A stretch of DNA of 64,000 nucleotides from Brachypterus glaber. Taxonomy: Eukaryota; Arthropoda; Insecta; Coleoptera; Kateretidae. A model generated the notes under the pieces. The model saw nothing but the letters and a program-made list of their open reading frames with translations. It made no database searches and was not told the origin of the DNA. Position 1 is the first letter of the stretch; every line of letters begins with the position of its first letter. Made by a program: the position numbers and the translations under genes. Location: contig OY294047.1 of NCBI GenBank assembly GCA_958510825.1, positions 51,629,365 through 51,693,364 on the forward strand, given 5' to 3'. Below, piece by piece: positions 2,364 through 55,689 of this stretch.

Positions 2364-2635
2364 CAATGTTGCTATAGATTTATTAGCAGTTTTTTGATAG
2401 TGTATTGTGTAATAAAAACTAGAAATGGGTCTATTGTTGGATCAACATTGCTGGTGGAGGCCGTAATATTTTTTATTCACAATTATATGTAATAAGCTCT
2501 GTACATTGAGAAGACAACGTCATGATAAATTTACATAAAATGTTTATTATATTCTATTAGGACAGAAATTTTTAATTTTAAACAAAATTATAAAAATATT
2601 AATTTATTATTCCATCAATCTATTTTCTAATCATC

Positions 2636-2708
2636 GTACAGAGTGATATTGGTAGACTGACAGTTTCGGGCTTCTGGCCCTCTTCAGTACCAAGAGTCAA
2701 CTCTGCAC
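2636..2708 (-). ncRNA. Type I hammerhead ribozyme (locus 1, left arm)
   Basis: Read on the minus strand, the order is as follows. Outer stem I is GTGCAGAGT, closed by ACTCTGTAC (nine pairs, one G-U). A 6x4 internal loop follows, then inner stem I TTGGTA with TACCAA. Next come core CTGAAGA, stem II GGGC/GCCC with loop CAGAA, core GAA, and stem III ACTG/CAGT with a single-nucleotide loop. The cleavage triplet is GUC, just before TACCAA. All core positions match the hammerhead consensus (CUGANGA, GAAA, NUH). The one-nucleotide stem III loop is typical of hammerheads in retroelements, which often cleave better as dimers. Confidence 0.88.
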
Positions 2709-2989
2709 GCTGATTAAGAAAACGTTTTTAGACTTTACTCGCAAAAGGAATATAGCCATTAGATTGATGTAGACTTGTGCGCCATCTATTTCTAGATGTA
2801 GACAACTACTCATACCTCTCCTAATCTGGAGACTTTGAATGGTAGCAAGTGGTAAAAAAAGTCTCCAGATTAGGAGAGGTATGAGTAGTTGTCTACATCT
2901 AGAAATAGATGGCGCACAAGTCTACATCAATCTAATGGCTATATTCCTTTTGCGAGTAAAGTCTAAAAACGTTTTCTTAATCAGCGTGC

Positions 2990-3153
2990 TGAGCAGAGAC
3001 TCACTCCCCCCAAATTATGACAGATGCAACTCGCATCAGTGAGCATAGACTCACTGCCCCAACTTTCAATTCAGATTAAATATTTTTTTAGATAAATGAG
3101 CCATAGGCTGCGCCTGTCTCTTAAAGACCCAAACAAACTATTGATGATGATGA
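2990..3153 (+). mobile_element. Short retroposon insertion (SINE or truncated RTE-like LINE tail)
   Basis: A 164-bp insertion in the right arm of the foldback. It is flanked by the perfect 12-bp duplication TAATCAGCGTGC (2978-2989 and 3154-3165) and ends in a (TGA)n tail. It contains two copies of a GAGCANAGACTCACT-like motif. A long target duplication plus a simple-repeat tail indicates target-primed reverse transcription. (TGA)n-type tails are common on RTE-clade LINEs and their SINEs. The paralogous site in the second 10-kb block (13312-13329) is empty. The open frame 2839-3042 merely spans this junction. Confidence 0.75.
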
Positions 3154-3161
3154 TAATCAGC

Positions 3162-3234
3162 GTGCAGAGTTGACTCTTGGTACTGAAGAGGGCCAGAAGC
3201 CCGAAACTGTCAGTCTACCAATATCACTCTGTAC
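3162..3234 (+). ncRNA. Type I hammerhead ribozyme (locus 1, right arm)
   Basis: This is the exact complement-orientation twin of the minus-strand copy at 2636-2708. CTGAAGA is at 3183-3189, stem II at 3190-3202, GAAAC from 3203, and the predicted cleavage lies after C3215. Stem I pairs 3162-3170 with 3226-3234, and 3177-3182 with 3216-3221. The neighbouring retroposon duplicated the first four bases of the outer stem, so the ribozyme remained complete. Confidence 0.88.
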
Positions 3235-3292
3235 GATGATTAGAAAATAGATTGATGGAATAATAAATTATATTCTATTAATAGTAATTATA

Positions 3293-3823
3293 TACCAAGG
3301 TAGAGAAGACATTTTTTATAGCCGAGCGAATTAAATCCCGTGCAGCGAGGGATTTAAGAGTACGAGGATATAATAGTCTTCTCTACCGTAGTTTATATAT
3401 TATTTTTTTCACTACTAGCACTATTTAACTATTTTTATTCAAATAAAATAAATTATTAACAGAAATGATATTTCTTGAAATTTAATCAAGTAACCCTGAT
3501 CAGTGACATTTCTCAAATAAATACTTTGAAATGACTTTTAAAAATTAGATGTTTTAATTTTTTTCATAATATTTAGCTAATTATTGATTGTATTAATTGG
3601 TAATAATTATAATTAATTATTTTTATTAAATAAAAAGTTATTTAAAGCTATTTTCTTGGGTTTAATTAGTAAAAATTGCACAAAGAACTGAAACATCTAA
3701 AGTGACAGAAATCAATTGTTTGGAGAGAAAAAATTATTATTGCTATAGGTGAAGAAAATTAATTTCACAGTCTAAAAGCATTATAAATAATGGTATGTTC
3801 TAAAGCTAGTAGTGAAAAAAAAA
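3293..3823. mobile_element. Inverted-repeat element, CACTACTAG family, copy a
   Basis: An outer hairpin of ATACCAAGGTAGAGAAGAC with GTCTTCTCTACCGTAG is followed by TTTTTTCACTACTAGC. The element ends in the complement GCTAGTAGTGAAAAAA. Further copies lie at 13451-13993 (other block) and 36757-37326. It is non-coding, and the superfamily is not assigned. Confidence 0.65.
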
Positions 3824-4012
3824 TAGTTATTGACCCCAGTACTTGGCACACTATCCCACTTCTAATCAAAAATTAACAGAAAATAAATACTACTTTACTT
3901 TCGAACGAGTTGCCATATCGACTTCAAATTTAAAACACCTTCATAAGATAACTCAAATTATATTTTTGCATGTATTTGATGAGGGGATTTTTTTTAAAGG
4001 TCATATGTTATA

Positions 4013-4741
4013 CAGAGTGGTCCAAAAGTCACCCCCCCCCCCTCTTAACTTTTGAACCAGTTGAGATATCGACTTCAAATTTGGAACTTTTAAATAAGAC
4101 AACTTAAACTATCTTTTAGCATATATTTAATACTTTCAGCTCTTAAAATGTGGGCAGGGGGGCATGGGGGCACATTTCTTTAAATGGAAAGGGGGATCGT
4201 ATAATACATCATTTTAAAGCTTATAAAATTCTCCATTTAACTCCATATTTTTAAATAGAAAAAAATTGGGTTTAAAATGGGGTTGAAAATGGGTATTAAT
4301 GTCAAAATTCCTCTAAAAAAAAAACAAATAATTTTTTAAAAATGCTTAATTTCATCATAAAAAATGTTAATTATACTTTTAAACTAATTTTAGTTGACAT
4401 AAATAAAACTTTATAAAAAAAAAACTTAAAAAATCGAATGTTTTAGCACAAAAAATTTAAAAATCAAAACCTTAAAAAAACATTTTTAAAAAATTTAAAA
4501 TGTTAGTTTAAATAGAGAATTTTATAAGCTTTAAAATGATGTATCACACGACCCCCCTTTCCATTTAAAAAAATGTCCCCCCATCCCCCCATGCCCCCCT
4601 GCCCACCTTTTAAGAGCTGAAAATATCAAATATATGCTAAAAGATAGTTTAAGTTGTCTTATTGAAGAGTTCTAAATTTGAAGTCGATATCTCAACTCGT
4701 TCAAAAGTTAAAAGGGGGGGGGTGACTTTTGGACCGCACTG
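4013..4741. mobile_element. TA-flanked foldback MITE with C-rich arms (family M2), copy a
   Basis: The termini are CAGAGTGGTCCAAAAGTCAC and, complemented, CAGTGCGGTCCAAAAGTCAC, with TA on both sides. Arms of roughly 260 bp include GAGATATCGACTTCAAATTT, a C/G homopolymer and a GGGGGGCATGGGGG block. The loop is very A/T-rich. It lies inside partial related sequence on both sides (3843-4000 and 4744-4990), implying nested insertions of similar elements. The second copy is at 14176-14902. The open frames 3843-4055 and 4649-4936 fall in this repeat and are not considered genes. Confidence 0.7.
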
Positions 4742-5118
4742 TATGTTCATATAACTTATCATTTTAAAGCTTGTTGTAAAATTATCTATTCGACCATATC
4801 TTTTTAACTGATATCCAAAAAAGGAGGAGGTTAGTTTTAGAATTTTTTTTTTTTTTGAGGTGTTTAAAATGGGAAATTTCGTCAAAATGTCTTTAAAAAC
4901 TAAACAGTTTTTTAAAAATGATAAATTTAAATACACAAAAACGTAAATTATACTTTTAAACTAATATCAAATGATATAAATATAATTTTACAAAAAAAAT
5001 CTTAAATAATCGCATTAAGACACTATTTTGAATATTATTATTGAAATTTATAAATATCATCGATCAGAAGACTAGAAATGTTCCAACTAAATGCTTTTGC
5101 TTCTGTGTTTACCCTCAA

Positions 5119-5489
5119 TGGAGCTTTGTACAACTAGAATTATGAAACAAAAGACGTCTACCCTATCTCTATCTCATTTGTGCTACACTTTCCAGCCAAC
5201 CAAATAAATACTGTATTTGTTTTTTATACAACAAATACAGTATTTATTTGGTTGGCAGGAAAGTGTAGCTCTGAGTGGCACGAAGGAACACAGCTAATGT
5301 GAATCTGTAGAATAAGATAATTCTACTAAAATTTAGATGGCGCCAGTAATTTCTTTAATAAAAATATTATAAACACATTTCGCCCGGCCAAGTAAATATT
5401 GTATTTGTTCAACAAAGAACAAATACAGAATTTGTTTGGTTGGGTGTAAGTGGGTAGAACTTTTGTCCCTGTCTAATCTAACGGGAGAA
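5119..5489 (+). mobile_element. Double-hairpin insertion element (family H), copy in block 1
   Basis: This 371-bp segment is absent from the matching site in block 2, where CCCTCAA joins TTAGTGCC directly (15275/15276). It starts TGGAGCTTTGTACAAC and ends CTAATCTAACGGGAG. These ends are not inverted repeats, and any target duplication is at most AA. It has two internal hairpins: a ~45-bp arm around CCAACCAAATAAATACTG, and a second around GTAAATATTGTATTTGTTC. A reverse-orientation copy is at 41400-41802. Lack of TIRs and a minimal target duplication rule out most cut-and-paste families. A Helitron-like or unknown mechanism is possible. Confidence 0.75.
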
Positions 5490-7900
5490 TTAGTGCCTTA
5501 TTTATTCACAAGCATACACTTCTATTTATCCTTGTTACAATTCGAAGTGATTTTGATTTAAATCTTCGTTTGCACAGTTTTCATTTCAGTAAACAGGCAT
5601 ACCTACTAATGGATGTCGATATTAAATTTTTGTTATTTTAAATTTCTGACAATAACAATAAATTGGCTTGCTATCAAATTGCCAATCTGTATTTCTATTA
5701 AAAATAAGAAGAAGTTATTTCAGGAAAATAATAAATAAACACATTTTTCTTTTTCTGAATTAATTTTAACTATGGTGGATTGTGATCTGTAAAAAACGTA
5801 AATTACAGGCCACTAAGATGTAGATAGTTATATTAGTTTATTAAAAATTGCAGTATATTTACACACACAAAAAATTTTAATCCCTATTCGTACCCCAAAA
5901 ACGTCTGTAATGAAACTAGTATTCAACGGTACTGGTTTAAAATTGGTCAGCAAGTTACTTTATTTGAACAGTGTCATGATGATTATCATCAATTTTTTTC
6001 AGTTGAATTTTTCTTGTGTTGTTTATTGTCGTCTTAATGTCGTCTATTCATGTTGTTAGAGACTTTAAAAACCACAATCTGTCCTGCAATTTTTCTGAAG
6101 ACTATGTGTAAATAAGTTTTTAATTCATTTTACATTTAGTATAGACATCTATATTTTATTTTTAAAACTATTAGTTTCGAAAAAGCACCCTAAAATATTT
6201 TATAACCTAGTATCACCCATCCTTGTACCCTACTGCCACCGATTCGCGAATAATAGGGGTGCTACGAAATGTCGTAAATATCGACTGTATTACAAAAGCT
6301 GCAAAGTTCTTGCTCTAACTTGCATACAATACTCTTGGTTGTATTTATTTTTTCTAGTAATTTTCTAGTATTTTTTTTTCTCTTTATTCTTGAACCACAT
6401 TTAAAATTGCTGCCAATTTTTGCTTAAAAATTAGTTTGAACACAAAATTTTAACTTTATTATTATTTAGGAAAATTTAAAAATAGTACAACCAAACGTTG
6501 TTGTGACAAGTTTGAGGTATATAATACCATTTTTACTCTTATTCCAAAACATTATAACAATATTAGAACCTTACTTACCCAAGAATCAATATCCACAGTT
6601 ATATTAAATACACTATTAAAATTGTAGATTCATATTATTTAATAATACAACAACGTTGTTGTCACTATAAAAGTTTTTTGAGGAAGGATGATTAATAAAG
6701 ATGGCGACAATCAGCTGATTCTAATAAATGTTTTACCAAAATATTGAAAGTGGGCATTTTGGGCTAAAATTTTTATGTGCATGTGAATGTATATGTAATT
6801 ACATGTGATACTTAGTTTCTATGTACACAGAAATGAATTTAAAATACATCACAGAACACCCACATCACAGCTCGTCAAACGTAGGAAGAGACGTGAGTGT
6901 TTAAATATGGACATGCCCCCAAACCACGCGTCTGAATTCACCAGTTGTTAGATGTGCGCCTACCGCCTATCTTTCTTCCTCCAAATACTTTCTATTTCTT
7001 TCTTTTACGCAGTCCGTCACATTTCCACGTCTCTTCCTACCAGGCTCTGCTAGCCAGCCGGACGGACCGGTCAGCTGAATTGCCTGCGTTTTGAAGTGAG
7101 GATCGTGACGTAGGAAGGAGCGGCAATCCGATCCTGCAGATTTGCAAGCCACGCCTACACTCGTTAGTAAATACTGAATGCGTTTACTTTTGTGTTGTTG
7201 TATTCTATGCAATATATAGTGGTTGGCGCATATACAACTATTTATTGTTGTATACTTTAACCTATTTACGTACGTATCAGTTTACTGTAAGTACATTAAT
7301 ACATTCTTTAAAACTTTTGGAATACTAATGATTTATTTTACCTACTAAAAAGTAATCCATTTTTAATTAAAATTATGCTTATTATGGAGAGATAAGCAAA
7401 AACTTTAAAAAAAGAAAAACATTCTGAGAACTGGAAAGCCTATTTCTTTTTGTATCTTGTTTACTATTTGAAGATGGTTAGGATCAATAACCTGGCCATG
7501 GACGAAGAGTACAATCATATAATATAAAAGTGACTGTGCTGCTTGGCTTGTCTCGGCATTATACAACACTTATATTCTTTTCCTCACTTTGAAACACCAT
7601 ACACTTGCTTCTGGTTCTGATGGAAGGAAATTGCCCACATGGGAGTATTGTCGCTAGCAATTGTTTGTATAACAAAAGAACGCAGATTGATTTTTATGAT
7701 TAATTGTTTTTGGTTACAAGGAGCATGACAGGAAAAATTTATAAACTAAATTTAGGGAGAAATGTCACTACGTTTTTATTGAAAAATATGGTAATCAGTC
7801 TTAAGCAATTTTATTATCTTTCAATTTCCAGCATTTTACAGCAACAAAAGAATGTTCATCTTTCATTATAAAGGTTAATAAATATTAAAGGAAATGAGTA
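5490..7900 (+). other. Unassigned stretch of block 1
   Basis: No gene was recognised. It holds a short inverted repeat around AACGTTGTTGTGACA (6493-6660), a 111-bp repeat at 6672-6782 and a GC-richer island at 6870-7165. The island has an inverted pair, GTAGGAAGAGACGTG / CACGTCTCTTCCTAC. The open frame on the minus strand at 6967-7212 lies in the island and has no recognisable similarity. It is identical in the second block, which is expected from the duplication and is not evidence of selection. Confidence 0.4.
6672..6782 (+). repeat. 111-bp dispersed repeat, copy a
   Basis: It runs from AGTTTTTTGAGGAAGGATG to TTTTTATGTGCAT and occurs again at 22512-22622 with about four substitutions, as well as at 16459-16569 in the duplicated block. 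Block 1 is cut by the assembly gap within the first bases of what would be its next copy (12728-12739). Confidence 0.8.
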
Positions 7901-7909
7901 GAAACCAAG

Positions 7910-8023
7910 GCTGTCCATAGGCTCGCACAAGATACATGACGGCACATTAAGTCAGTCACCTATGTTATGTATTATGCATAATAATAACTAACCATGGTTT
8001 AGTCATGCGAGCCTCTGGACAGC
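7910..8023. mobile_element. 114-bp MITE with TIR GCTGTCCATAGGCTCGCA
   Basis: The left terminus is GCTGTCCATAGGCTCGCA and the right one is TGCGAGCCTCTGGACAGC. The core contains GATACATGACGGCACAT. Copies lie at 17694-17807, at 55093-55221 (divergent), and as the inner hairpin of the two mariner-like elements at 26687-27266 and 51837-52417. It is non-coding. The nearby 60-112-codon frames at 7965-8498 are shadows within repeats. Confidence 0.65.
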
Positions 8024-8397
8024 GCTTAAGCCATTTGGAATGTTTTAAAGACATATCCGTAATGATAATTTCATTAAGTCGCTCTAATTTCGAATGATTT
8101 TTTTTCGTGTACAGTTTTAAATACCTACATTTGTACTGTACTAAACTAACGTTATTTCTTTGTTTTATATTTCCATTTACAAAAGCATATTTGGTCTCAT
8201 TCTCGAATTGTTTTCTGTCCATTTCAGTAGGCGTTTGTCACAAACTACACAAAACCCCCTGCTGTGGCTTTTTTTGGAAAGCCCATACCTCAAACTGGTG
8301 CAGAGTCATGTTCATTTAACCCTTTTTTTCTGCTTTTTTTTTGTTTCTTTTTATACCCACTCTTCTCGTTCTCCGAAACAACTAGTATTAATAATCC

Positions 8398-8647
8398 TAC
8401 ACAGAAAAAAAATCGTTACAACAAGGATACATGTATTCGATATGTTCAAAGCCGTATTGTTTTCTTTTAAGGCTGGCATTTCTTTGAACCAAAGTTAATT
8501 TCCTTGAATAAAGAAAGCGTATCTTCATTTAAAAGCCGTTGCTTTTTACTTAAGACTTTGGTACAAAGCTTTGAAACAAGAGAATATGGCTTTGAACATA
8601 TCGAAAGACACGTGTTCTTGGTTCAAGGAATCTTTTTTTTCTGTGTA
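8398..8647. mobile_element. MITE with TACACAGAAAAAA termini (family A), short copy
   Basis: The termini TACACAGAAAAAAA and TTTTTTTTCTGTGTA form a TIR. The interior includes GAACATATCGAAAGAC and TTGGTTCAAGG, both shared with the 794-bp element at 59182-59975, which carries a coding exon. The duplicate is at 18182-18431. The superfamily is not assigned. Confidence 0.65.
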
Positions 8648-8885
8648 TATTATACAATTCTTTCTATTTTTTTTTATAAAAAAAATCCCTCAAAAAAAAT
8701 AGTTATGAGGGGTTAAACTTTTAAAAAATCAAAAAAGTCAGAGGGGACGTTAAAATTAGCAAATGAAAATTACATGAAATGATAGCCTTTAACAACGTTA
8801 AGGCATTTGTAAAAATTCATTACTGTGATTTATAGGGTTCCAGAAATATTAAATAAAAACTACTTTTTAGATGTACCTTTAGGAG

Positions 8886-9002
8886 AGTCGTAGCTCCCTT
8901 AGGGCTCATTTCCGGACCAACCTTTATAGGAACTTTTTTTTATATTTTGTAAAGTAGAATCACCTCTTAAATTTCTCGAACTTATTTCTGAATAACCATG
9001 TA
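8886..9002. mobile_element. Solo arm of mariner-like MITE M1
   Basis: It holds GGCTCATTTCCGGACCAACC and the subterminal AATCACCTCTTAAATTTC of the M1 family, but only one arm. It ends at AACCATGTA. The paralogue is at 18670-18786. Confidence 0.65.
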
Positions 9003-9043
9003 TACTTTACCATAATTGGGAACAAATTTTAAGTCGACTCGTT

Positions 9044-9118
9044 GTGTAGGGGCTAGTGTAACCGCTTGACTTTCTAAAGTCCCAGGTTCGAGGCCCATAC
9101 CCGGACCGTTTTTTTTTT
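9044..9118 (+). ncRNA. tRNA-like sequence with Pol III A and B boxes (SINE head or tRNA pseudogene)
   Basis: TAGTGTAACCG at 9054-9064 fits the A-box consensus TRGYNNARNNG exactly. GGTTCGAGGCC at 9085-9095 fits the B box exactly. An anticodon-like stem-loop, GACT-TTCTAA-AGTC, would read TCT (arginine). A run of ten T at 9109-9118 could terminate Pol III. The expected acceptor stem does not pair, so this is not an intact tRNA gene. A tRNA-derived SINE head or a decayed tRNA-Arg is more likely. The paralogue is at 18828-18902. Confidence 0.55.
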
Positions 9119-9177
9119 GCTTTTTTATTTTTTTGCGTTTTAGTTAAATCATTTTAACCTGTGTAAAATAAGTATTT

Positions 9178-9252
9178 GGGAAAATGCAATATACTCTCCA
9201 CTGTGAGTAGTATATAATGGATTGCGAAGCATTACATATCTGTATGACTTGT
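9178..9252 (+). repeat. 75-bp dispersed repeat with TATA palindrome
   Basis: It begins TTTGGGAAAATGCAATATAC and contains AGTAGTATATAATGGA. A diverged copy occurs at 51697-51775 in the same orientation. It is probably a MITE end. Confidence 0.55.
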
Positions 9253-9956
9253 TTTTTTTCTTTTTCAAATGGACTAAACTTGCAACTTGTCCCCGCTTCA
9301 AGCTGGTTTATATTCTCTTGTTTTTTTTTCGACGTTCATTTGTCTCTTTAAATACGAGCAAGATTAATGGTCAAAATGGACTGCAGAGGCAAAATGAAAA
9401 GACGACAAAATATAATTACCAAAATGATGATGTATATTTCTTTGTAATTTAGGATGTCTCTGGTGGAAGAGGGTTTCCTCGTTTTGTTTTTGTCTTTTTT
9501 GAGTGGTTTAGGCATGACTAAAAGTTTAATTGTTGGGTAAAAACAAAAACAATACACTAGAATTTTAATCAATAGTAAAAATAGTATACGACCTTGACGC
9601 AAACCAGTTCAGTGCAAATCAAGGGCACTTTAGTGCACTAAAAACTAGGTTCGCGTACTTATTGCGTAATATACTATTTCGTATGACCTAGTGTACACGA
9701 AATAAAGAAAAATGCATGTTCACTATATATCCTCGTTAGGATATATTTCTATCGCACGAGTACATAGTGCATATTTTAATGAAATGACAACTATGCACAC
9801 TCATTTATCCAAACGAGTACACATAGCTTTCATTTTGACAAAAGTCATTTGACGTTTATAAAATTTTGAAATGTCAAAATTAAACACAGGTAATTTTTTA
9901 AAATATACATTTTTAAAGAGTCTAGATGTAGATCGAACGAAACTCGTTTGCGACAA

Positions 9957-10032
9957 GTCCTTAGTGCACTCGAATGATTTTTTGACTTCGCTTCGCGTCG
10001 TCAAAAAAACTTCATTCTCGTGCACTAAGGAC
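9957..10032. repeat. Strong hairpin within a palindromic element
   Basis: Arms GTCCTTAGTGCACTCGAATG and its near-complement enclose a CG-rich loop containing CTTCGCTTCGCG. The surrounding 9590-10060 contains further short palindromes (TATATCCTCGTTAGGATATA; AATATACTATTTCG). This suggests a foldback MITE with AATAGTATA-like ends. The paralogue is 9784 bp to the right. Confidence 0.6.
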
Positions 10033-10513
10033 TAAAGTCGCTTTCTCGTTACGAAAACTACTAATTTAGGTGATAGTAGAAGTAACAATAATTTATTTTC
10101 GAAGTTTTACGTATGTATGTAATTAGCTTCTTTCTAAATGATTGTGATTACGTGATACCGGGGTAGACCGAAATACCACGCATCACCATGTGGAAGGGGT
10201 TTAAAATTGTAAAAAATTAATCACCTGATTTATGCCATGACGGTAAGAATATTTTTAAAAACCCTGCGTACACTGAAGAGATTTTCTCAATATTTTTTAA
10301 TTCTTAAGGTATTTTATCAGTTTAACTTGCTTTCTTGTAATCTAATATATCTCTTTAACAAAAACAGAAAAAGAAGATAAATTACTAAGCTAGTAAACAA
10401 GTGTTCTTTATAAGATTACAGGAACATACTCAGTTTTTAATAAATTTTTTCCTGCTAGATGGTTTGTAAAATCGTCAAATCAAATATCACTCAAGACAGT
10501 GAAATTTTCAGAA

Positions 10514-10697
10514 AATTTTATTATGGCCTCATAAAACAATTTTGCTCTAAAGTAATTTTTTTCGTTTATTTCTTGCTGAAAGCTTTCGTCCTTCGTGAAG
10601 CTTTTAATCTCAGCTTCGGTCTCAAGCTTTTAATAACGAAAAATATAATCAAAAAATTACCGAGCAAAATTATTTTATGGGACCATAATAAAATTAT
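10514..10697. mobile_element. Palindromic MITE-like sequence
   Basis: Left TTTTATTATGGCCTCATAAA and TTTTGCTCTAAAGTAA are matched by the complement on the right (TTACCGAGCAAAA, then TTTATGGGACCATAATAAAA). The AAAGCTTTCG-rich middle forms a smaller hairpin. The open frame 10459-10764 runs straight through both arms and is not credible. The paralogue is at 20298-20481. Confidence 0.6.
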
Positions 10698-10881
10698 CCA
10701 AAAAGTCCAAAAAAAAATGTATCACCTACAGCAACTTTTTCTCCTTAACTCTTTAATAAAATAATACATCAGTACAATGTTCCATATCTTTCGAACCATC
10801 TTCTAAGTGCAACATAAAAAACTGGATTAAATGGCAATTGTTCGAATCGAGATGAATGAACGTGTTTTTCTTTTGTTTTAG

Positions 10882-11117
10882 CCGGTCGAATATGGTTAAA
10901 CGACCGGGATATTGCCGCGAGAAAAAGTGAACATCGAGAAAAAAGTGAATATCGAGAAATGAATGAGTGGATCGTAGATGAGATTCGACATTTAATGACG
11001 ATTATGTCAAATCGCACTGGCGGAGAGAAAATTTGTACTCGCACAAGAAGGGGTCGTGAACTGTTAAGCTTCGGTTCCCTCCAAAAGTCGCAGTCGCTGA
11101 CGACTGCGACCGGGTAG
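10882..11117 (+). CDS. Possible terminal exon, unrecognised
   Basis: A polypyrimidine tract ending TTTTCTTTTGTTTTAG at 10881 resembles a 3' splice site. From there a frame stays open for 78 codons to TAG at 11115-11117. The local GC content is clearly higher than in the flanks. The predicted peptide is very basic and charged (it includes KSEHREKSEYREMNEWIVD and TRTRRGRELL), and I do not recognise a domain. No upstream partner exon is identifiable. The frame is phase-2, taking G10881 as its first base only if the upstream exon supplies it. It is duplicated at 20666-20901. The alternative is a chance open frame in a GC-rich repeat: random frames of this length occur several times in the window. 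The minus-strand frame covering the same segment (10769-11044) is judged a shadow. Confidence 0.25.
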
Positions 11118-12320
11118 CCGCGACCGAGTCGTTCTCCAATGCATTTTCAATGTCCCTGTTTTCCTAGCTGCTACCGAGTCGTTAATACTAACTGTAATAG
11201 GGTGCTGGTCCCAATTAAAGCCAAAAATATTAATTATCTAAGACATTAATTTAGAACCACACACTATTATTTGGAGGCGTATCGAATACAAATAGCTGTA
11301 TAGTTGCTATTTGGGTAGCGTGCCACCAGTCATAATATTACATAATATTATCACAATATCATATATCATATGATAACAAATGTTAATATAATAATCTAAT
11401 TACTATTTAATACTTAACTGACTTTCTTAGATGTTTCTTCGATGTCTTCCAATATCACTAACTTTATATAGAAATGTGAAAGGTAAAAAACTTCAAATAT
11501 ATTTTAAATTAATTAAAATATATCTTGCCAATAAAACAAAAGGATTAAACAACAATGAAAAGAATTTAATTCAAAGAAAAATGAAAAGTTAAAAACAAAT
11601 AAAAAAACAACAAAATATTTTAATTTGAAATGAAAAAAAATTATGAATAAATAGCATCTTTACCCTTCAGATATTTCTATACGCGCGACTCTAAATTTTA
11701 CTTTAAATTTTCACATATTACGTTAATTCTACAACTTCCCTAAGACCCAACTTTACTAGACGACTACATATTTCCGAATCCCCTTTTTGACCATAACTAA
11801 ACACAGGCAAAGATTTCCCTTCCCAGAGATGCCGATATACCAGTCATAAAACTATTAACGAAAAATATCTGAGGAGTTTTCTGCCAAAAAGTTATATTAT
11901 TATAAAAATAATATTAATTGAAAAATTACTTTAAATCACTGAAAATGAATTTAAATTTAATTAAGAGAAATGATTAAAAAAACTACTTCTACTTATTGAT
12001 TGATATTGATTTTCATGACATTGCTTCGAAGTAGAAAAAACCATTTTTACAAACAATCCCTAACTATTGCCAGTATCTAAAACAACATCATTAAAGATAT
12101 TCCCATATTTATTAATTAAGAAAACCGAATTAACCAATTAATTAGGCTAATAAAAATGTACACCCTTTTTATGTAAACGCCTCAATTACACAAAATGCAA
12201 GCTTCCCAAATACTAATAATATTAGCATCTGTAAAAATAAACAGCAAACCACCCGTTAAGAACAATGCTATGTCACGTTCAATAACCATACAAATAAAAA
12301 TATAAATACTCAATATATAC
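11118..12320. other. Unassigned AT-rich stretch (block 1)
   Basis: No coding frame, TIR pair or RNA gene was recognised. Short CG-rich palindromic words (GTCGCAGTCG...CGACTGCGAC near 11090-11110) and A-rich runs are present. The same content recurs at 20902-22104. Confidence 0.4.
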
Positions 12321-12738
12321 AGGGTGACCACTCTGTTACATAACTACCGGTCGCCGTTCTTTGGTCGCCGGTCGCTTGACCGCTCCGGGAGCAGACTCAC
12401 GACTACTTCCTCACGAATTTGACGGTGAAACAGGTAGTTTTGCGACCTGTCAAGTGTCTTTCACTACTCCACCTCTCTGAGCAGAAACATCTCATCAATT
12501 TTTACCCTTTTTTTTCATGATGTACTGTTAATAAGAGGAGGAGATTCTCCTCTTCCGCTTGATTATTCAGAAACATTAAAATAAAACGACTTTATAAAGA
12601 TATTCATACTGATTGAAAGACATAATTTCGCAAAAAAACAGCTGTTTATAAAATGGCCAGCAAACAGAATGGCGACTGGCGAGACCGAGGAAAACAGGTA
12701 GGGTCGTAACGACCTTTTAAAATAATAGTTTTTTGAGG
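12321..12738. repeat. Possible TIR element start (TACAGGGTGACC) up to the gap
   Basis: TACAGGGTGACCACTCTG at 12319 resembles a mariner-type terminus. It is followed by a GC-richer segment with CGGTCGCCG/GGTCGCCGG words. No matching right terminus was found before the gap. The paralogue at 22103-22523 also lacks a clear partner. Confidence 0.35.
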
Positions 12739-12739
12739 G

Positions 12740-12939
12740 NNNNNNNNNNNNNNNNNNNNNNNNNNNNNNNNNNNNNNNNNNNNNNNNNNNNNNNNNNNNN
12801 NNNNNNNNNNNNNNNNNNNNNNNNNNNNNNNNNNNNNNNNNNNNNNNNNNNNNNNNNNNNNNNNNNNNNNNNNNNNNNNNNNNNNNNNNNNNNNNNNNNN
12901 NNNNNNNNNNNNNNNNNNNNNNNNNNNNNNNNNNNNNNN
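12740..12939. other. Assembly gap of exactly 200 N
   Basis: The run of N is exactly 200 long, a common fixed placeholder for a scaffold join of unknown size. It sits between two near-identical ~10-kb blocks. The apparent open frame across it is an artefact. Confidence 0.98.
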
Positions 12940-12970
12940 AGTAAAGTCTAAAAACGTTTTCTTAATCAGC

Positions 12971-13043
12971 GTGCAGAGTTGACTCTTGGTACTGAAGAGG
13001 GCCAGAAGCCCGAAACTGTCAGTCTACCAATATCACTCTGTAC
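12971..13043 (+). ncRNA. Type I hammerhead ribozyme (locus 2, first unit)
   Basis: All 73 nt are identical to 3162-3234. The core CTGAAGA, stem II GGGC/GCCC, GAAAC and GTC are intact, and predicted cleavage lies after C13024. Confidence 0.88.
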
Positions 13044-13199
13044 GATGATTAGAAAATAGATTGATGGAATAATAAATTAATATTTTTATAATTTTGTTTA
13101 AAATTAAAAATTTCTGTCCTTACGAATTCTACGTCTAACCACCCGTTAGTGGTACTATGTGCTTGAGACACACAAGTCTTCAACTTGCTACCATTCAAA

Positions 13200-16100
13200 G
13201 TCTCCAGATTAGGAGAGGTATGAGTAGTTGTCTACATCTAGAAATAGATGGCGCACAAGTCTACATCAATCTAATGGCTATATTCCTTTTGCGAGTAAAG
13301 TCTAAAAACGTTTTCTTAATCAGCGTGCAGAGTTGACTCTTGGTACTGAAGAGGGCCAGAAGCCCGAAACTGTCAGTCTACCAATATCACTCTGTACGAT
13401 GATTAGAAAATAGATTGATGGAATAATAAATTATATTCTATTAATAGTAATTATATACCAAGGTAGAGAAGACATTTTTTATAGCCGAGCGAATTAAATC
13501 CCGTGCAGCGAGGGATTTAAGAGTACGAGGATATAATAGTCTTCTCTACCGTAGTTTATATATTATTTTTTTCACTACTAGCACTATTTAACTATTTTTA
13601 TTCAAATAAAATAAATTATTAACAGAAATGATATTTCTTGAAATTTAATCAAGTAACCCTGATCAGTGACATTTCTCAAATAAATACTTTGAAATGACTT
13701 TTAAAAATTAGATGTTTTAATTTTTTTCATAATATTTAGCTAATTATTGATTGTATTAATTGGTAATAATTATAACTAATTATTTTTATTAAATAAAAAG
13801 TTATTTAAAGCTATTTTCTTGGGTTTAATTAGTAAAAATTGCACAAAGAACTGAAACATCTAAAGTGACAGAAATCAATTGTTTGGAGAGAAAAAATTAT
13901 TATTGCTATAGGTGAAGAAAATTCATTTCACAGTCTAAAAGCATTATAAATAATGGTATGTTCTAAAGCTAGTAGTGAAAAAAAAATAGTTATTGACCCC
14001 AGTACTTGGCACACTATCCCACTTCTAATCAAAAATTAACAGAAAATAAATACTACTTTACTTTCGAACGAGTTGGCATATCGACTTCAAATTTAAAACA
14101 CCTTCATAAGATAACTCAAATTATATTTTTGCATGTATTTGATGAGGGGAATTTTTTTAAAGGTCATATGTTATACAGAGTGGTCCAAAAGTCACCCCCC
14201 CCCCTCTTAACTTTTGAACCAGTTGAGATATCGACTTCAAATTTGGAACTTTTAAATAAGACAACTTAAACTATCTTTTAGCATATATTTAATACTTTTA
14301 GCTCTTAAAATGTGGGCAGGGGGGCATGGGGGCACATTTCTTTAAATGGAAAGGGGGATCGTATAATACATCATTTTAAAGCTTATAAAATTCTCCATTT
14401 AACTCCATATTTTTAAATAGAAAAAAATTGGGTTTAAAATGGGGTTCAAAATGGGTATTAATGTCAAAATTCCTCTAAAAAAAAACAAATAATTTTTTAA
14501 AAATGCTTAATTTCATCATAAAAAATGTTAATTATACTTTTAAACTAATTTTAGTTGACATAAATAAAACTTTATAAAAAAAAAACTTAAAAAATCGAAT
14601 GTTTTAGCACAAAAAATTTAAAAATCAAAACCTTAAAAAAACATTTTTAAAAAATTTAAAATGTTAGTTTAAATAGAGAATTTTATAAGCTTTAAAATGA
14701 TGTATCACACGACCCCCCTTTCCATTTAAAAAAATGTCCCCCCATCCCCCCATGCGCCCCTGCCCACCTTTTAAGAGCTGAAAATATCAAATATATGCTA
14801 AAAGATAGTTTAAGTTGTCTTATTGAAGAGTTCTAAATTTGAAGTCGATATCTCAACTCGTTCAAAAGTTAAAAGGGGGGGGGTGACTTTTGGACCGCAC
14901 TGTATGTTCATATAACTTATCATTTTAAAGCTTGTTGTAAAATTATCTATTCGACCATATCTTTTTAACTGATATCCAAAAAAGGAGGAGGTTAGTTTTA
15001 GAATTTTTTTTTTGAGGTGTTTAAAATGGGAAATTTCGTCAAAATGTCTTTAAAAACTAAACAGTTTTTTAAAAATGATAAATTTAAATATACAAAAACG
15101 TAAATTATACTTTTAAACTAATATCAAATGATATAAATATAATTTTACAAAAAAAATCTTAAATAATCGCATTAAGACACTATTTTGAATATTATTATTG
15201 AAATTTATAAATATCATCGATCAGAAGACTAGAAATGTTCCAACTAAATGCTTTTGCTTCTGTGTTTACCCTCAATTAGTGCCTTATTTATTCACAAGCA
15301 TACACTTCTATTTATCCTAGTTACAATTCGAAGTGATTTTGATTTAAATTATCTGTTTGCACAGTTTTCATTTCAGTAAACAGACATACCTACTAATGGA
15401 TGTCGATATTAAATTTTTGTTATTTTAAATTTCTGACAATAACAATAAATTGGCTTGCTATCAAATTGCCAATCTGTATTTCTATTAAAAATAAGAAAAA
15501 GTTATTTCAGGAAAATAATAAATAAACACATTTTTCTTTTTCTGAATTAATTTTAACTATGGTGGATTGTGATCTGTAAAAAACGTAAATTACAGGCCAC
15601 TAAGATGTAGATAGTTATATTAGTTTATTAAAAATTGCAGTATATTTACACACACAAAAAATTTTAATCCCTATTCGTACCCCAAAAACGTCTGTAATGA
15701 AACTAGTATTCAACGGTACTGGTTTAAAATTGGTCAGCAAGTTACTTTATTTGAACAGTGTCATGATGATTATCATCAATTTTTTTCAGTTGAATTTGTC
15801 TTGTGTTGTTTATTGTCGTCTTAATGTCGTCTATTCATGTTGTTAGAGACTTTAAAAACCACAATCTGTCCTGCAATTTTTCTGAAGACTATGTGTAAAT
15901 AAGTTTTTAATTCATTTTACATTTAGTATAGACATCTATATTTTATTTTTAAAACTATTAGTTTCGAAAAAGCACCCTAAAATATTTTATAACCTAGTAT
16001 CACCCATCCTTGTACCCTACTGCCACCGATTCGCGAATAATAGGGGTGCTACGAAATGTCGTAAATATCGACTGTATTACAAAAGCTGCAAAGTTCTTGC

Positions 16101-19100
16101 TCTAACTTGCATACAATACTCTTGGTTGTATTTATTTTTTCTAGTAATTTTCTAGTATTTTTTTTTCTCTTTATTCTTGAACCACATTTAAAATTGCTGC
16201 CAATTTTTGCTTAAAAATTAGTTTGAACACAAAATTTTAACTTTATTATTATTTAGGAAAATTTAAAAATAGTACAACCAAACGTTGTTGTGACAAGTTT
16301 GAGGTATATAATACCATTTTTACTCTTATTCCAAAACATTATAACAATATTAGAACCTTACTTACCCAAGAATCAATATCCACAGTTATATTAAATACAC
16401 TATTAAAATTGTAGATTCATATTATTTAAGAATACAACAACGTTGTTGTCACTATAAAAGTTTTTTGAGGAAGGATGATTAATAAAGATGGCGACAATCA
16501 GCTGATTCTAATAAATGTTTTACCAAAATATTGAAAGTGGGCATTTTGGGCTAAAATTTTTATGTGCATGTGAATGTATATGTAATTACATGTGATACTT
16601 AGTTTCTATGTACACAGAAATGAATTTAAAATACATCACAGAACACCCACATCACAGCTCGTCAAACGTAGGAAGAGACGTGAGTGTTTAAATATGGACA
16701 TGCCCCCAAACCACGCGTCTGAATTCACCAGTTGTTAGATGTGCGCCTACCGCCTATCTTTCTTCCTCCAAATACTTTCTATTTCTTTCTTTTACGCAGT
16801 CCGTCACATTTCCACGTCTCTTCCTACCAGGCTCTGCTAGCCAGCCGGACGGACCGGTCAGCTGAATTGCCTGCGTTTTGAAGTGAGGATCGTGACGTAG
16901 GAAGGAGCGGCAATCCGATCCTGCAGATTTGCAAGCCACGCCTACACTCGTTAGTAAATACTGAATGCGTTTACTTTTGTGTTGTTGTATTCTATGCAAT
17001 ATATAGTGGTTGGCGCATATACAACTATTTATTGTTGTATACTATAACCTAATTACGTACGTATCAGTTTACTGTAAGTACATTAATACATTCTTTAAAA
17101 CTTTTGGAATACTAATGATTTATTTTACCTACTAAAAAGTAATCCATTTTTAATTAAAATTATGCTTATTATGGAGAGATAAGCAAAAACTTTAAAAAAA
17201 GAAAAACATTCTGAGAACAAAGCCTATTTCTTTTTGTATCTTGTTTACTATTTGAAGATGGTTAGGATCAATAACCTGGCCATGGACGAAGAGTACAATC
17301 ATATAATATAAAAGTGACTGTGCTGCTTGGCTTGTCTCGGCATTATACAACACTTATATTCTTTTCCTCACTTTGAAACACCATACACTTGCTTCTGGTT
17401 CTGATGGAAGGAAATTGCCCACATGGGAGTATTGTCGCTAGCAATTGTTTGTATAACAAAAGAACGCAGATTGATTTTTATGATTAATTGTTTTTGGTTA
17501 CAAGGAACATGACAGGAAAAATTTATAAACTAAATTTAGGGAGAAATGTCACTACGTTTTTATTGAAAAATATGGTAATCAGTCTTAAGCAATTTTATTA
17601 TCTTTCAATTTCCAGCATTTTACAGCAACAAAAGAATGTTCATCTTTCATTATAAAGGTTAATAAATATTAAAGGAAATGAGTAGAAACCAAGGCTGTCC
17701 ATAGGCTCGCACAAGATACATGACGGCACATTAAGTCAGTCACCTATGTTATGTATTATGCATAATAATAACTAACCATGGTTTAGTCATGCGAGCCTCT
17801 GGACAGCGCTTAAGCCATTTGGAATGTTTTAAAGACATATCCGTAATGATAATTTCATTAAGTCGCTCTAATTTCGAATGATTTTTTTTCGTGTACAGTT
17901 TTAAATACCTACATTTGTACTGTACTAAACTAACGTTATTTCTTTGTTTTATATTTCCATTTACAAAAGCATATTTGGTCTCATTCTCGAATTGTTTTCT
18001 GTCCATTTCAGTAGGCGTTTGTCACAAACTACACAAAACCCCCTGCTGTGGCTTTTTTTGGAAAGCCCATACCTCAAACTGGTGCAGAGTCATGTTCATT
18101 TAACCCTTTTTTTCTGCTTTTTTTTTGTTTCTTTTTATACCCACTCTTCTCGTTCTCCGAAACAACTAGTATTAATAATCCTACACAGAAAAAAAATCGT
18201 TACAACAAGGATACATGTATTCGATATGTTCAAAGCCGTATTGTTTTCTTTTAAGGCTGGCATTTCTTTGAACCAAAGTTAATTTCCTTGAATAAAGAAA
18301 GCGTATCTTCATTTAAAAGCCGTTGCTTTTTACTTAAGACTTTGGTACAAAGCTTTGAAACAAGAGAATATGGCTTTGAACATATCGAAAGACACGTGTT
18401 CTTGGTTCAAGGAATCTTTTTTTTCTGTGTATATTATACAATTCTTTCTATTTTTTTTTATAAAAAAAATCCCTCAAAAAAAATAGTTATGAGGGGTTAA
18501 ACTTTTAAAAAATCAAAAAAGTCAGAGGGGACGTTAAAATTAGCAAATGAAAATTACATGAAATGATAGCCTTTAACAACGTTAAGGCATTTGTAAAAAT
18601 TCATTACTGTGATTTATAGGGTTCCAGAAATATTAAATAAAAACTACTTTTTAGATGTACCTTTAGGAGAGTCGTAGCTCCCTTAGGGCTCATTTCCGGA
18701 CCAACCTTTATAGGAACTTTTTTTTATATTTTGTAAAGTAGAATCACCTCTTAAATTTCTCGAACTTATTTCTGAATAACCATGTATACTTTACCATAAT
18801 TGGGAACAAATTTTAAGTCGACTCGTTGTGTAGGGGCTAGTGTAACCGCTTGACTTTCTAAAGTCCCAGGTTCGAGGCCCATACCCGGACCGTTTTTTTT
18901 TTGCTTTTTTATTTTTTTGCGTTTTAGTTAAATCATTTTAACCTGTGTAAAATAAGTATTTGGGAAAATGCAATATACTCTCCACTGTGAGTAGTATATA
19001 ATGGATTGCGAAGCATTACATATCTGTATGACTTGTTTTTTTTCTTTTTCAAATGGACTAAACTTGCAACTTGTCCCCGCTTCAAGCTGGTTTATATTCT

Positions 19101-22100
19101 CTTGTTTTTTTTTCGACGTTCATTTGTCTCTTTAAATACGAGCAAGATTAATGGTCAAAATGGACTGCAGAGGCAAAATGAAAAGACGACAAAATATAAT
19201 TACCAAAATGATGATGTATATTTCTTTGTAATTTAGGATGTCTCTGGTGGAAGAGGGTTTCCTCGTTTTGTTTTTGTCTTTTTTGAGTGGTTTAGGCATG
19301 ACTAAAAGTTTAATTGTTGGGTAAAAACAAAAACAATACACTAGAATTTTAATCAATAGTAAAAATAGTATACGACCTTGACGCAAACCAGTTCAGTGCA
19401 AATCAAGGGCACTTTAGTGCACTAAAAACTAGGTTCGCGTACTTATTGCGTAATATACTATTTCGTATGACCTAGTGTACACGAAATAAAGAAAAATGCA
19501 TGTTCACTATATATCCTCGTTAGGATATATTTCTATCGCACGAGTACATAGTGCATATTTTAATGAAATGACAACTATGCACACTCATTTATCCAAACGA
19601 GTACACATAGCTTTCATTTTGACAAAAGTCATTTGACGTTTATAAAATTTTGAAATGTCAAAATTAAACACAGGTAATTTTTTAAAATATACATTTTTAA
19701 AGAGTCTAGATGTAGATCGAACGAAACTCGTTTGCGACAAGTCCTTAGTGCACTCGAATGATTTTTTGACTTCGCTTCGCGTCGTCAAAAAAACTTCATT
19801 CTCGTGCACTAAGGACTAAAGTCGCTTTCTCGTTACGAAAACTACTAATTTAGGTGATAGTAGAAGTAACAATAATTTATTTTCGAAGTTTTACGTATGT
19901 ATGTAATTAGCTTCTTTCTAAATGATTGTGATTACGTGATACCGGGGTAGACCGAAATACCACGCATCACCATGTGGAAGGGGTTTAAAATTGTAAAAAA
20001 TTAATCACCTGATTTATGCCATGACGGTAAGAATATTTTTAAAAACCCTGCGTACACTGAAGAGATTTTCTCAATATTTTTTAATTCTTAAGGTATTTTA
20101 TCAGTTTAACTTGCTTTCTTGTAATCTAATATATCTCTTTAACAAAAACAGAAAAAGAAGATAAATTACTAAGCTAGTAAACAAGTGTTCTTTATAAGAT
20201 TACAGGAACATACTCAGTTTTTAATAAATTTTTTCCTGCTAGATGGTTTGTAAAATCGTCAAATCAAATATCACTCAAGACAGTGAAATTTTCAGAAAAT
20301 TTTATTATGGCCTCATAAAACAATTTTGCTCTAAAGTAATTTTTTTCGTTTATTTCTTGCTGAAAGCTTTCGTCCTTCGTGAAGCTTTTAATCTCAGCTT
20401 CGGTCTCAAGCTTTTAATAACGAAAAATATAATCAAAAAATTACCGAGCAAAATTATTTTATGGGACCATAATAAAATTATCCAAAAAGTCCAAAAAAAA
20501 ATGTATCACCTACAGCAACTTTTTCTCCTTAACTCTTTAATAAAATAATACATCAGTACAATGTTCCATATCTTTCGAACCATCTTCTAAGTGCAACATA
20601 AAAAACTGGATTAAATGGCAATTGTTCGAATCGAGATGAATGAACGTGTTTTTCTTTTGTTTTAGCCGGTCGAATATGGTTAAACGACCGGGATATTGCC
20701 GCGAGAAAAAGTGAACATCGAGAAAAAAGTGAATATCGAGAAATGAATGAGTGGATCGTAGATGAGATTCGACATTTAATGACGATTATGTCAAATCGCA
20801 CTGGCGGAGAGAAAATTTGTACTCGCACAAGAAGGGGTCGTGAACTGTTAAGCTTCGGTTCCCTCCAAAAGTCGCAGTCGCTGACGACTGCGACCGGGTA
20901 GCCGCGACCGAGTCGTTCTCCAATGCATTTTCAATGTCCCTGTTTTCCTAGCTGCTACCGAGTCGTTAATACTAACTGTAATAGGGTGCTGGTCCCAATT
21001 AAAGCCAAAAATATTAATTATCTAAGACATTAATTTAGAACCACACACTATTATTTGGAGGCGTATCGAATACAAATAGCTGTATAGTTGCTATTTGGGT
21101 AGCGTGCCACCAGTCATAATATTACATAATATTATCACAATATCATATATCATATGATAACAAATGTTAATATAATAATCTAATTACTATTTAATACTTA
21201 ACTGACTTTCTTAGATGTTTCTTCGATGTCTTCCAATATCACTAACTTTATATAGAAATGTGAAAGGTAAAAAACTTCAAATATATTTTAAATTAATTAA
21301 AATATATCTTGCCAATAAAACAAAAGGATTAAACAACAATGAAAAGAATTTAATTCAAAGAAAAATGAAAAGTTAAAAACAAATAAAAAAACAACAAAAT
21401 ATTTTAATTTGAAATGAAAAAAAATTATGAATAAATAGCATCTTTACCCTTCAGATATTTCTATACGCGCGACTCTAAATTTTACTTTAAATTTTCACAT
21501 ATTACGTTAATTCTACAACTTCCCTAAGACCCAACTTTACTAGACGACTACATATTTCCGAATCCCCTTTTTGACCATAACTAAACACAGGCAAAGATTT
21601 CCCTTCCCAGAGATGCCGATATACCAGTCATAAAACTATTAACGAAAAATATCTGAGGAGTTTTCTGCCAAAAAGTTATATTATTATAAAAATAATATTA
21701 ATTGAAAAATTACTTTAAATCACTGAAAATGAATTTAAATTTAATTAAGAGAAATGATTAAAAAAACTACTTCTACTTATTGATTGATATTGATTTTCAT
21801 GACATTGCTTCGAAGTAGAAAAAACCATTTTTACAAACAATCCCTAACTATTGCCAGTATCTAAAACAACATCATTAAAGATATTCCCATATTTATTAAT
21901 TAAGAAAACCGAATTAACCAATTAATTAGGCTAATAAAAATGTACACCCTTTTTATGTAAACGCCTCAATTACACAAAATGCAAGCTTCCCAAATACTAA
22001 TAATATTAGCATCTGTAAAAATAAACAGCAAACCACCCGTTAAGAACAATGCTATGTCACGTTCAATAACCATACAAATAAAAATATAAATACTCAATAT

Positions 22101-22523
22101 ATACAGGGTGACCACTCTGTTACATAACTACCGGTCGCCGTTCTTTGGTCGCCGGTCGCTTGACCGCTCCGGGAGCAGACTCACGACTACTTCCTCACGA
22201 ATTTGACGGTGAAACAGGTAGTTTTGCGACCTGTCAAGTGTCTTTCACTACTCCACCTCTCTGAGCAGAAACATCTCATCAACTTTTATCCTTTTTTTTC
22301 ATGATGTACTGTTAATAAGAGGAGGAGATTCTCCTCTTCCGCTTGATTATTCAGAAACATTAAAATAAAACGACTTTATAAAGATATTCATACTGATTGA
22401 AAGACATAATTTCGCAAAAAAAACAGCTGTTTATAAAATGGCCAGCAAACAGAATGGCGACTGGCGAGACCGAGGAAAACAGGTAGGGTCGTAACGACCT
22501 TTTAAAATAATAGTTTTTTGAGG
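13200..22523 (+). repeat. Large near-identical block, copy 2 (right of assembly gap)
   Basis: This is the counterpart of 2861-12738. It lacks the 164-bp retroposon and the 371-bp double-hairpin insertion, so both sites are visible here as empty sites. Its contents, each matching the block 1 feature, are: CACTACTAG element 13451-13993, M2 MITE 14176-14902, 111-bp repeat 16459-16569, small MITE 17694-17807, ACACAG MITE 18182-18431, M1 solo arm 18670-18786, tRNA-like 18828-18902, hairpin 19741-19816, palindromic MITE 20298-20481 and exon candidate 20666-20901. Confidence 0.95.
13325..13397 (+). ncRNA. Type I hammerhead ribozyme (locus 2, second unit)
   Basis: Identical to the copy 354 bp upstream, with predicted cleavage after C13378. 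A transcript covering both would release a 354-nt RNA bounded by two hammerhead cuts, the size and layout described for small metazoan retrozymes. Confidence 0.88.
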
Positions 22524-32160: not shown

Positions 32161-33071
32161 CCCCTCGCACACTCTGTTGTTGAGAGCTTTAGAAAACGCC
32201 TCATATCGCACACTAGTTTGATATTTTTATATCACACTCGTGTGATATTTATGTATGGAGGTTTGCCTAATTTTATTTAAATGTTTACCTCATAGATTCT
32301 ACGAATTTTCTTCACCTTGTTTTATAAACTATTTTCCACCTTTCACTACAGCCTTTTATATTTTTTAAGTGTTTTAATCCAAATATTTCTGTTTTTCATG
32401 TATTGTATTAAATATAAAACCAAGAAAACTAAAGCTAAATGAAAACCATATTTCCTGTTTGACATGCCTACATATATAAATGCGTATGCTCTTTATAATT
32501 ATTTTGTGCTGAAAATTTTAAAATAAGAAACTTCATATTTTTTCGGGTCGTAGGAAAAATAGTGTACATAACTCGTTGGAAAGTGTATTTCTACACTCGT
32601 GGGGTTTCCTCACTCGCCTAGCGGCTTGTTCGTACACCTTCCCACTCGCGTGAAATATGTCACTTTCCACACTAGTTATGTCATATACTATTAGCTAGTA
32701 GCTTTTTCTGTGTAGCACAAACGATGTTACCGAAGAATGATTGTATTACATCGTGTAGCAAGCGCATTTTTAACCGTCTAGTATGTAATTTTTTTCTGAA
32801 ACGATAAATTTTCAGTAAACTGCAATTTTCCATGGAAGCGGGACGAAAATAAATATATCCTGTGACGTGTAAAGTTAATATATCAGTCTAGCAAAACCTT
32901 CCAACAACCGGCACTGATGTTACCTACTACGTACATTTTAGACGCGTCACAAATGTGATCTTAGTGACAGAGCTTAAGCTTACAAATTATATTATAACGT
33001 TATAACTGTAAGAAGTTGTAGTAAATATTTTATTACTAAACATGGTTTTCTCTTTTAAATAAATCTAAATT

Positions 33072-55570: not shown

Positions 55571-55616
55571 AAACAAAATATAATTTATTATTCCATCAAT
55601 CTATTTTCTAATCATC

Positions 55617-55689
55617 GTACAGAGTGATATTGGTAGACTGACAGTTTCGGGCTGCTGGCCCTCTTCAGTACCAAGAGTCAACTCTGCAC
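55617..55689 (-). ncRNA. Type I hammerhead ribozyme (locus 3, left arm)
   Basis: Same 73-nt architecture as locus 1. The only change is in loop II: CAGCA instead of CAGAA. Core, stems and GUC are unchanged. Confidence 0.88.

Follow-up and report, generated by a model that had tools for sequence, protein, structure and literature searches.

The window analysed here, a stretch of 64,000 nucleotides from Brachypterus glaber, holds six copies of a type I hammerhead motif that lie within copies of a 354-nt non-coding unit, arranged at most of the mapped loci as inverted arms. We consider it probable that this unit is a retrozyme of the animal type, which a Penelope-like element (PLE) mobilises in trans, and that the foldback arrangement is a footprint of its insertion. 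Kinship with retrozymes and PLEs, which the initial annotation of this DNA had suggested, is supported.

Hammerhead motifs in the window

All six 73-nt segments were found where they had been annotated (starting at 2636 and 55617 on the minus strand, and at 3162, 12971, 13325 and 56134 on the plus strand), within three elements that have the following features:

2546–2559: left target-site duplication of element 1 (14 bp, an exact repeat at both outer arm ends)
2560–3267: element 1, a foldback; left minus arm running to unit position 95 (tail), right plus arm running to position 52 (no tail)
2636–2708, minus strand: type I hammerhead of the element 1 left arm, predicted cleavage at 2655/2654
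2978–3165, plus strand: SINE-like insert nested in element 1 (insert at about 2990–3153, with a GAT-repeat end)
3162–3234, plus strand: type I hammerhead of the element 1 right arm, predicted cleavage at 3215/3216
3267–3280: right target-site duplication of element 1, its first base common to the arm end
12740–12939: run of 200 N, most likely an assembly gap (200-N runs also occur in loci L017 and L019)
12940–13430, plus strand: element 2, a direct tandem that begins at unit position 270, covers a complete 354-nt unit and ends at position 52
12971–13043, plus strand: type I hammerhead, first direct copy in element 2
13025–13378, plus strand: reference 354-nt unit, position 1 being the first base after the predicted cleavage site
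13325–13397, plus strand: type I hammerhead, second direct copy in element 2 (spacing 354)
55575–55586: left target-site duplication of element 3 (12 bp; right copy at 56288–56299)
55584–56282: element 3, a foldback; left minus arm running to unit position 52, right plus arm running to position 95 (tail)
55617–55689, minus strand: type I hammerhead of the element 3 left arm
56134–56206, plus strand: type I hammerhead of the element 3 right arm
56240–56282, plus strand: tail of element 3 (43 nt, unit positions 53–95), at the outer end of one arm only

Each motif contains CUGAAGA, a 4-bp stem II (GGGC/GCCC), GAAA and GUC, together with an inner stem I of 6 bp and an outer stem I of 9 bp that includes one G-U, the two being separated by a 6x4 internal loop, all as the initial annotation had described; a stem III of 3 bp with a 3-nt loop, missing from its list, is also present in every case. 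Four of the six motifs are identical, and the two at 55.6–56.2 kb have a single-base difference in loop II. A motif scan of the window, with thresholds of at least 4, 3 and 3 bp in stems I, II and III, returned these six hammerheads and nothing else. In sequence simulated from the window by a first-order Markov model, the core (stem I at least 6, stem II at least 4 and stem III at least 3 bp) was found twice in 376 Mb, on both strands and before an outer stem was required. This bears out the earlier statement that such a fold is very unlikely to arise by chance, and chance origin of the core fold, being ruled out by this frequency, is therefore no serious explanation.

The motifs have the core by which type I hammerheads are recognised (CUGANGA / GAAA / NUH) and three helices, open at stem I. 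These features support their assignment, by core and helices, as type I hammerheads with predicted cleavage. The minimum free energy structure predicted for the 73-mer is an alternative fold (−28.3 versus −20.2 kcal/mol for the hammerhead), a comparison of secondary structure in which tertiary contacts are uncounted. When the exact motif was sought in viral contigs, there were no matches.

No Rfam hammerhead family matched the window at its gathering score, and at E ≤ 10 these families were absent from both the whole window and a 1.1-kb query. With a 101-base query, RAGATH-1-hammerhead aligned in register at 21.3 bits (E 0.076; gathering score 56.3). The initial annotation had proposed that the lack of any above-threshold model match would refute the motifs and, formally, this is the outcome, the best match reaching 21.3 of 56.3 bits. 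We judge this criterion too strict, and the result a limit of the models, on two grounds: the core, the helices, the copies and their context are mutually consistent, and RF00163 (Hammerhead_1) does work in this genome, where it detects another hammerhead, at locus L001, with 45.8 bits. The hammerhead claim is therefore made by core and fold, and not as an Rfam assignment. The L001 hammerhead (L001:1121–1660; contig C10, 30.94 Mb) is a second, unrelated type I motif, and sits in an element of ~520 bp that contains a 145-bp palindrome and is bounded by imperfect terminal inverted repeats (43 bp, 84%).

Sub-threshold matches to miRNA families in the window were to long inverted repeats and provide no miRNA evidence; related repeats of this kind lie at 5172–5278 and 41646–41745 and are likely MITE-like hairpins. 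A 243-codon stop-free stretch at 33069–33800, which has relatives up to 65% identical, many of them annotated with an RT domain, and no Pfam family match, is probably the 3' part of a LINE-type retrotransposon.

Copies and arrangements of the 354-nt unit

The six motifs are not six independent events. The segments 3154–12738 and 13317–22523 are a duplication, 99.3–99.8% identical, beside the 200-N gap, and this ~10-kb duplication is probably an uncollapsed haplotype or a contig overlap caused by the palindrome. This near-identity makes the motif at 13325 a second appearance of the right arm at 3162, so that one locus is represented twice. In agreement with this, the right junction and flank of element 2 are those of element 1, of which it is a duplicate or allele, its left part having been lost in the gap. 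The two arms of a foldback belong to one insertion, and the six motifs thus represent two insertions (2560–3267 and 55584–56282) plus a duplicate or allele (12940–13430). The SINE-like insert of element 1, flanked by a 12-bp duplication (2978–2989 and 3154–3165), is missing from the duplicate at 13.3 kb; the insert (2990–3153) landed at the 5' edge of the hammerhead, and its 12-bp duplication kept the ribozyme intact.

Further copies were sought in a sample of 327,047 bases out of a 648-Mb genome, consisting of the window and 27 loci, mostly from one 264-kb region. The 200 kb around the window yielded five further loci (L006, L010, L011, L015 and L021), and six 10-kb stretches elsewhere yielded one more (L023), present in one of two stretches on contig C10 and none of four on contig C1, so that spread of the family is shown for contig C10 only. 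In total, eight distinct loci and one duplicate were mapped to the unit. A BLAST count at E ≤ 1e-6, which misses badly decayed arms, gave 16 hammerhead-bearing arms in 327 kb; the core is intact in 13 of these, one of which is without the outer stem, and lesions affect the L010 right arm, the L011 right arm and one of the three L015 arms. Scaled naively from this small and mostly local sample, the genome would hold copies in the order of ten thousand. An anoctamin-like ORF was noticed in locus L020.

The unit has 36.2% GC and no long ORF, the longest stop-free stretch in the doubled unit being 65 codons. As a 354-nt circle it is predicted to be highly self-paired (−92.1 kcal/mol versus a mean of −66.0 for 100 shuffles, z = −5.26), with a minimum free energy fold in which the hammerhead is not formed.

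The unit occurs in three arrangements. Inverted copies are found at six of the eight distinct loci (elements 1 and 3, L006, L010, L011 and L015), and L021 and L023 are single arms. Passage beyond one unit in direct tandem was observed in two of nine arrangements, element 2 and part of L011, with two direct hammerheads only in element 2, which borders an assembly gap. The arms of the inverted copies overlap on the unit in five of six cases (in L010, for example, 289–432 lies within 199–452); in the sixth, L006, the second arm is reduced to the tail, lacks a hammerhead and abuts the first arm on the unit. On the unit, element 1 reads as minus 159–450 followed by plus 173–308 and plus 293–422, with ends set by exact match, and both of its arms carry a loop II variant that none of the other loci has. 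The centre of element 3, near 55948–55960, is palindromic; just before it, at 55824–55947, the left arm returns to unit positions 249–126 and contains them a second time, as template switching by an RT would give. At L015:4610–5225, three hammerhead arms (minus, minus, plus) are contained in one insertion, the middle one being joined inside the tail region.

Arm ends, tails and target-site duplications

Outer arm ends of the 3' type fall at two positions of the unit. Thirteen of 14 lie either at position 52 (six ends) or at position 95 (seven ends) after the predicted cleavage site, as judged against anchors picked after the copies had been inspected and leaving uncounted the 5' truncation points of L021 (~293) and L023 (~155). 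The short arms, which end at 52, are element 1 right, element 3 left, L006 left, L010 left and both arms of L015, and the tailed arms, which end at 95 or within the next few bases, are element 1 left, element 3 right, the right arms of L006, L010 and L011, and those of L021 and L023; the exception is the left arm of L011, which ends near position 25. Gapped BLAST alone placed the six short-arm ends at 55–78 and the L011 left end at 32, looser values that arise because the AT-rich flanks resemble the AT-rich tail. Position 52 is itself AT-rich, and the short-arm junctions have a few bases in common with the target.

The ends set by exact match are supported by exact target-site duplications of 11–14 bp at four of the eight loci (element 1, 14 bp; element 3, 12 bp; L006, 13 bp; L010, 11 bp). 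At the other four no duplication is significant, and the lengths (L015, 4 bp; L011, 3 bp; L021, 4 bp; L023, 7 bp) are within the range of the controls, 56 cross-locus comparisons in which the maximum match was 8 bp. A tail is present on one outer end of elements 1 and 3, L006 and L010, and on neither end of L015, while L011 has a tail at one end and is truncated at the other. In four foldbacks the tailed arm is longer by 43–46 nt.

A similar tail was noticed in an unrelated repeat. At L027:3732–5677, a 269-bp unit forms seven tandem copies, and the tail that closes this array resembles the one in the hammerhead element (81% over 53 columns, E 2.4e-5). The ten-base tail ends occur eight times in 327 kb, seven times in hammerhead elements and once in L027. 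The motif scan found no hammerhead in L027, and an Rfam search of the array returned nothing near cut-off. A hammerhead-like string at L027 ~6408–6470 on the plus strand (CTGAAGA, a stem and GAAACGTC), with one extra base before stem II, is in our view reminiscent of minimal PLE-type hammerheads.

Mobilisation of the unit and origin of the foldbacks

Animal retrozymes are described as direct tandem repeats of 150–450 bp with type I hammerheads and low GC, whose circles are strongly self-paired (PMC7229834). Those of the non-LTR class are characterised as non-coding, as free of LTR, PBS and PPT, and as accumulating in linear and circular RNA form. They (Cervera and de la Pena 2020, PMC7229834) share with the present unit the type I hammerhead, a length of ~350 nt, low GC, direct tandem copies, an apparent lack of coding capacity, a self-paired circle and, where duplications are present, lengths above 4 bp (here 11–14 bp at four of eight loci). 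Among the features of an animal retrozyme, a type I hammerhead, direct tandem units in the 150–450-bp range and low GC are found here. In contrast to the direct tandems of animal retrozymes, the elements described here are mostly foldbacks or single arms. The word 'inverted' has no occurrence in PMC7229834 and is found in PMC7761336 only in a reference title; among the titles and abstract openings of the matches listed, none reported PLE insertion signatures on retrozymes, which is not proof of absence. Hammerheads of newt and salamander satellites are also alike, in that their helix III is short and could pair between two molecules; a duplex of ACUGUCAGU is predicted here at −8.3 kcal/mol with a central mismatch, and action as a dimer is reported for the amphibian motifs (PMC7229834). 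These satellites form a long array, whereas the copies here are separate insertions.

PLEs have been named as likely helpers or proposed drivers of animal retrozymes (PMC7229834, PMC7761336, PMC8969392), and have been called a 'strong candidate' because both kinds of element have type I hammerheads and tandem copies and because they co-exist (PMC7229834). Their own insertions can carry an adjacent inverted copy of the terminal repeat (PMC3846280, PMC8969392). The claim that the foldback is a distinct, undescribed design is thus not supported. In the PLE studied in vitro (PMC11167929), a hammerhead at the start of the pLTR-ORF is cut at +26 and an internal RT start lies 111–118 nt into the ORF, which by subtraction places it 85–92 nt downstream of the cut; the tail is the 30–40 bp between two RT start sites; and the purified PLE cuts and extends both strands of AT-rich targets. 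The copies described here are like PLEs and their pLTRs (PMC3846280, PMC11167929) in having an inverted arm beside a direct one, an optional tail on one arm, a hammerhead shortly upstream of two apparent internal RT start sites, AT-rich targets and short duplications, so that the insertion signature of PLEs, an adjacent inverted copy with an optional one-arm tail, is present. They differ in lengths (tail of 43–46 nt and duplications of 11–14 bp, versus 30–40 bp and 8–10 bp published for PLEs), in the presence of a helix III in the hammerhead, and in the unit being without the RT and GIY-YIG ORF of an autonomous PLE. The in-vitro RT start is in an AC-rich stem loop that is non-homologous to the cut DNA (PMC11167929), as opposed to the AT-rich position 52 here, with its bases shared with the target. 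Inspection by eye of 19 stop-free stretches of 130 or more amino acids in the 327 kb (the first 400 residues of each) brought no recognisable PLE gene, and a Pfam search of five window ORFs returned no families.

These comparisons suggest a route in which a non-autonomous 354-nt unit with one type I hammerhead would be amplified by reverse transcription of circular or multimeric RNA, with the enzyme and the form of the RNA both being inferred. Direct tandem source copies would be transcribed and the RNA presumably cut into units by the hammerheads. Reverse transcription would then start at two fixed internal sites, 52 or ~95 nt past the cleavage site, as suggested by the fixed arm ends. Both strands of an AT-rich target would be cut 11–14 bp apart, and each may prime a cDNA. 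Both cDNAs would run back through the hammerhead and join head to head, giving a foldback with a 43–46-nt tail on one arm; if only one cDNA were kept, a single-arm copy would result, and an RT that passed more than once round or along its template would leave a direct tandem. Because the arms overlap, part of the unit must have been copied two times, a pattern consistent with both target strands priming synthesis, either on a pair of RNAs or on a multimer. The first of these steps may be dispensable for insertion, given that hammerhead mutants of the PLE studied in vitro inserted like the wild type; in the same work, cleavage required protein and there were no RNA ends at the cut site (PMC11167929).

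Two of the alternatives that we weighed keep the PLE enzyme. Inversion could have arisen by self-priming, with the cDNA or an antisense template folding back, the explanation favoured for rotifer PLEs whose inverted copies meet at palindromic junctions (PMC3846280), and one that the palindromic centre of element 3 would suit. The inverted arms of five of the six foldbacks, in contrast, start at the fixed position 52 and share bases with the target, which fits target priming, and purified PLE extends both strands (PMC11167929); the loop II variant in both arms of element 1 fits a single template and decides neither way. Self-priming is compatible with mobilisation of the retrozyme by a PLE, and we regard it as rather unlikely. 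Alternatively, the copies could be solo or ORF-deleted pLTR pairs of an autonomous PLE, inserted by the same enzyme and route, the unit then being the end of a larger element. The hammerhead, inverted arm, tail and spacing of the start sites are all pLTR-like, and solo pLTRs have been described (PMC3846280). Yet the 98 nt after the cleavage site have stops in all three frames, where the ORF spans the same stretch in the PLE of PMC11167929; in two arrangements the sequence beyond the tail is again the unit, with no ORF between; and the helix III and two-part stem I seen here differ from PLE hammerheads, which are described as minimal (PMC7761336). This origin we consider unlikely.

In classical twin priming, the two parts that are copied lie next to each other on a single RNA. 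LINE-type twin priming (5' inversion) of an RNA with a hammerhead near its 3' end would account for inverted parts, for microhomology at the short-arm junctions, for the 5'-truncated single copies L021 and L023 and for the adjoining arms of L006. In five of the six foldbacks, however, the arms cover the same stretch of RNA and adjoin only in L006, which rules out ordinary LINE 5' inversion as the main account, and no poly-A or simple-repeat 3' tail was seen; as an explanation of the family it is improbable. Even less credence can be given to transposase-driven movement of a foldback or MITE-type DNA transposon whose terminal inverted repeats carry the hammerhead along as a passenger. Inverted parts at six of eight loci and duplications at four of eight speak for it, but it fails on both equal terminal inverted repeats and a fixed duplication length: the ends are unequal (one arm longer by 43–46 nt in four foldbacks), the inner ends vary, duplications range from 11 to 14 bp, and single-arm and direct tandem copies exist.

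On the reading that we favour, a retrozyme mobilised by a PLE, insertion yields the foldback as one of several products, since the family also includes single-arm and direct tandem copies, and the mirror-image copies resemble a trace left by a Penelope-type enzyme and not a novel kind of ribozyme device. A foldback cannot release a unit, because it carries one ribozyme per strand and no two direct ribozymes; the source copies should be direct tandems, and the job of the ribozyme is likely RNA processing at source loci and nothing done by the foldback itself. The proposal that foldbacks cleave on either strand is doubtful, in that a transcript of the whole of element 3 (55575–56289, 715 nt) is predicted to form one long near-complete hairpin (−560.6 kcal/mol), which pairs the ribozyme with the antisense arm. 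Both start sites are less than 100 nt downstream of the ribozyme, so that cDNAs longer than ~150 nt carry it, and this would suffice to account for a ribozyme in each arm, which would be a by-product of cDNA start just downstream of the ribozyme in both arms.

A broader proposal, which we put forward tentatively and lean somewhat against, is that the hammerhead and the following ~95 nt may be a portable PLE docking module, through which unrelated non-coding RNAs would hijack an enzyme that primes both strands at two fixed RNA sites. If so, the 269-bp tandem array of L027 would be a second user of the tail, and the foldbacks would preserve in the genome a record of target-primed synthesis from two sides, and would show which enzyme mobilises animal retrozymes. 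The genomic copies described here fit the extension of both strands by purified PLE (PMC11167929), and the combination of two fixed ends, a one-sided tail and overlapping inverted arms is a structural fingerprint that can be searched for in any assembled genome.
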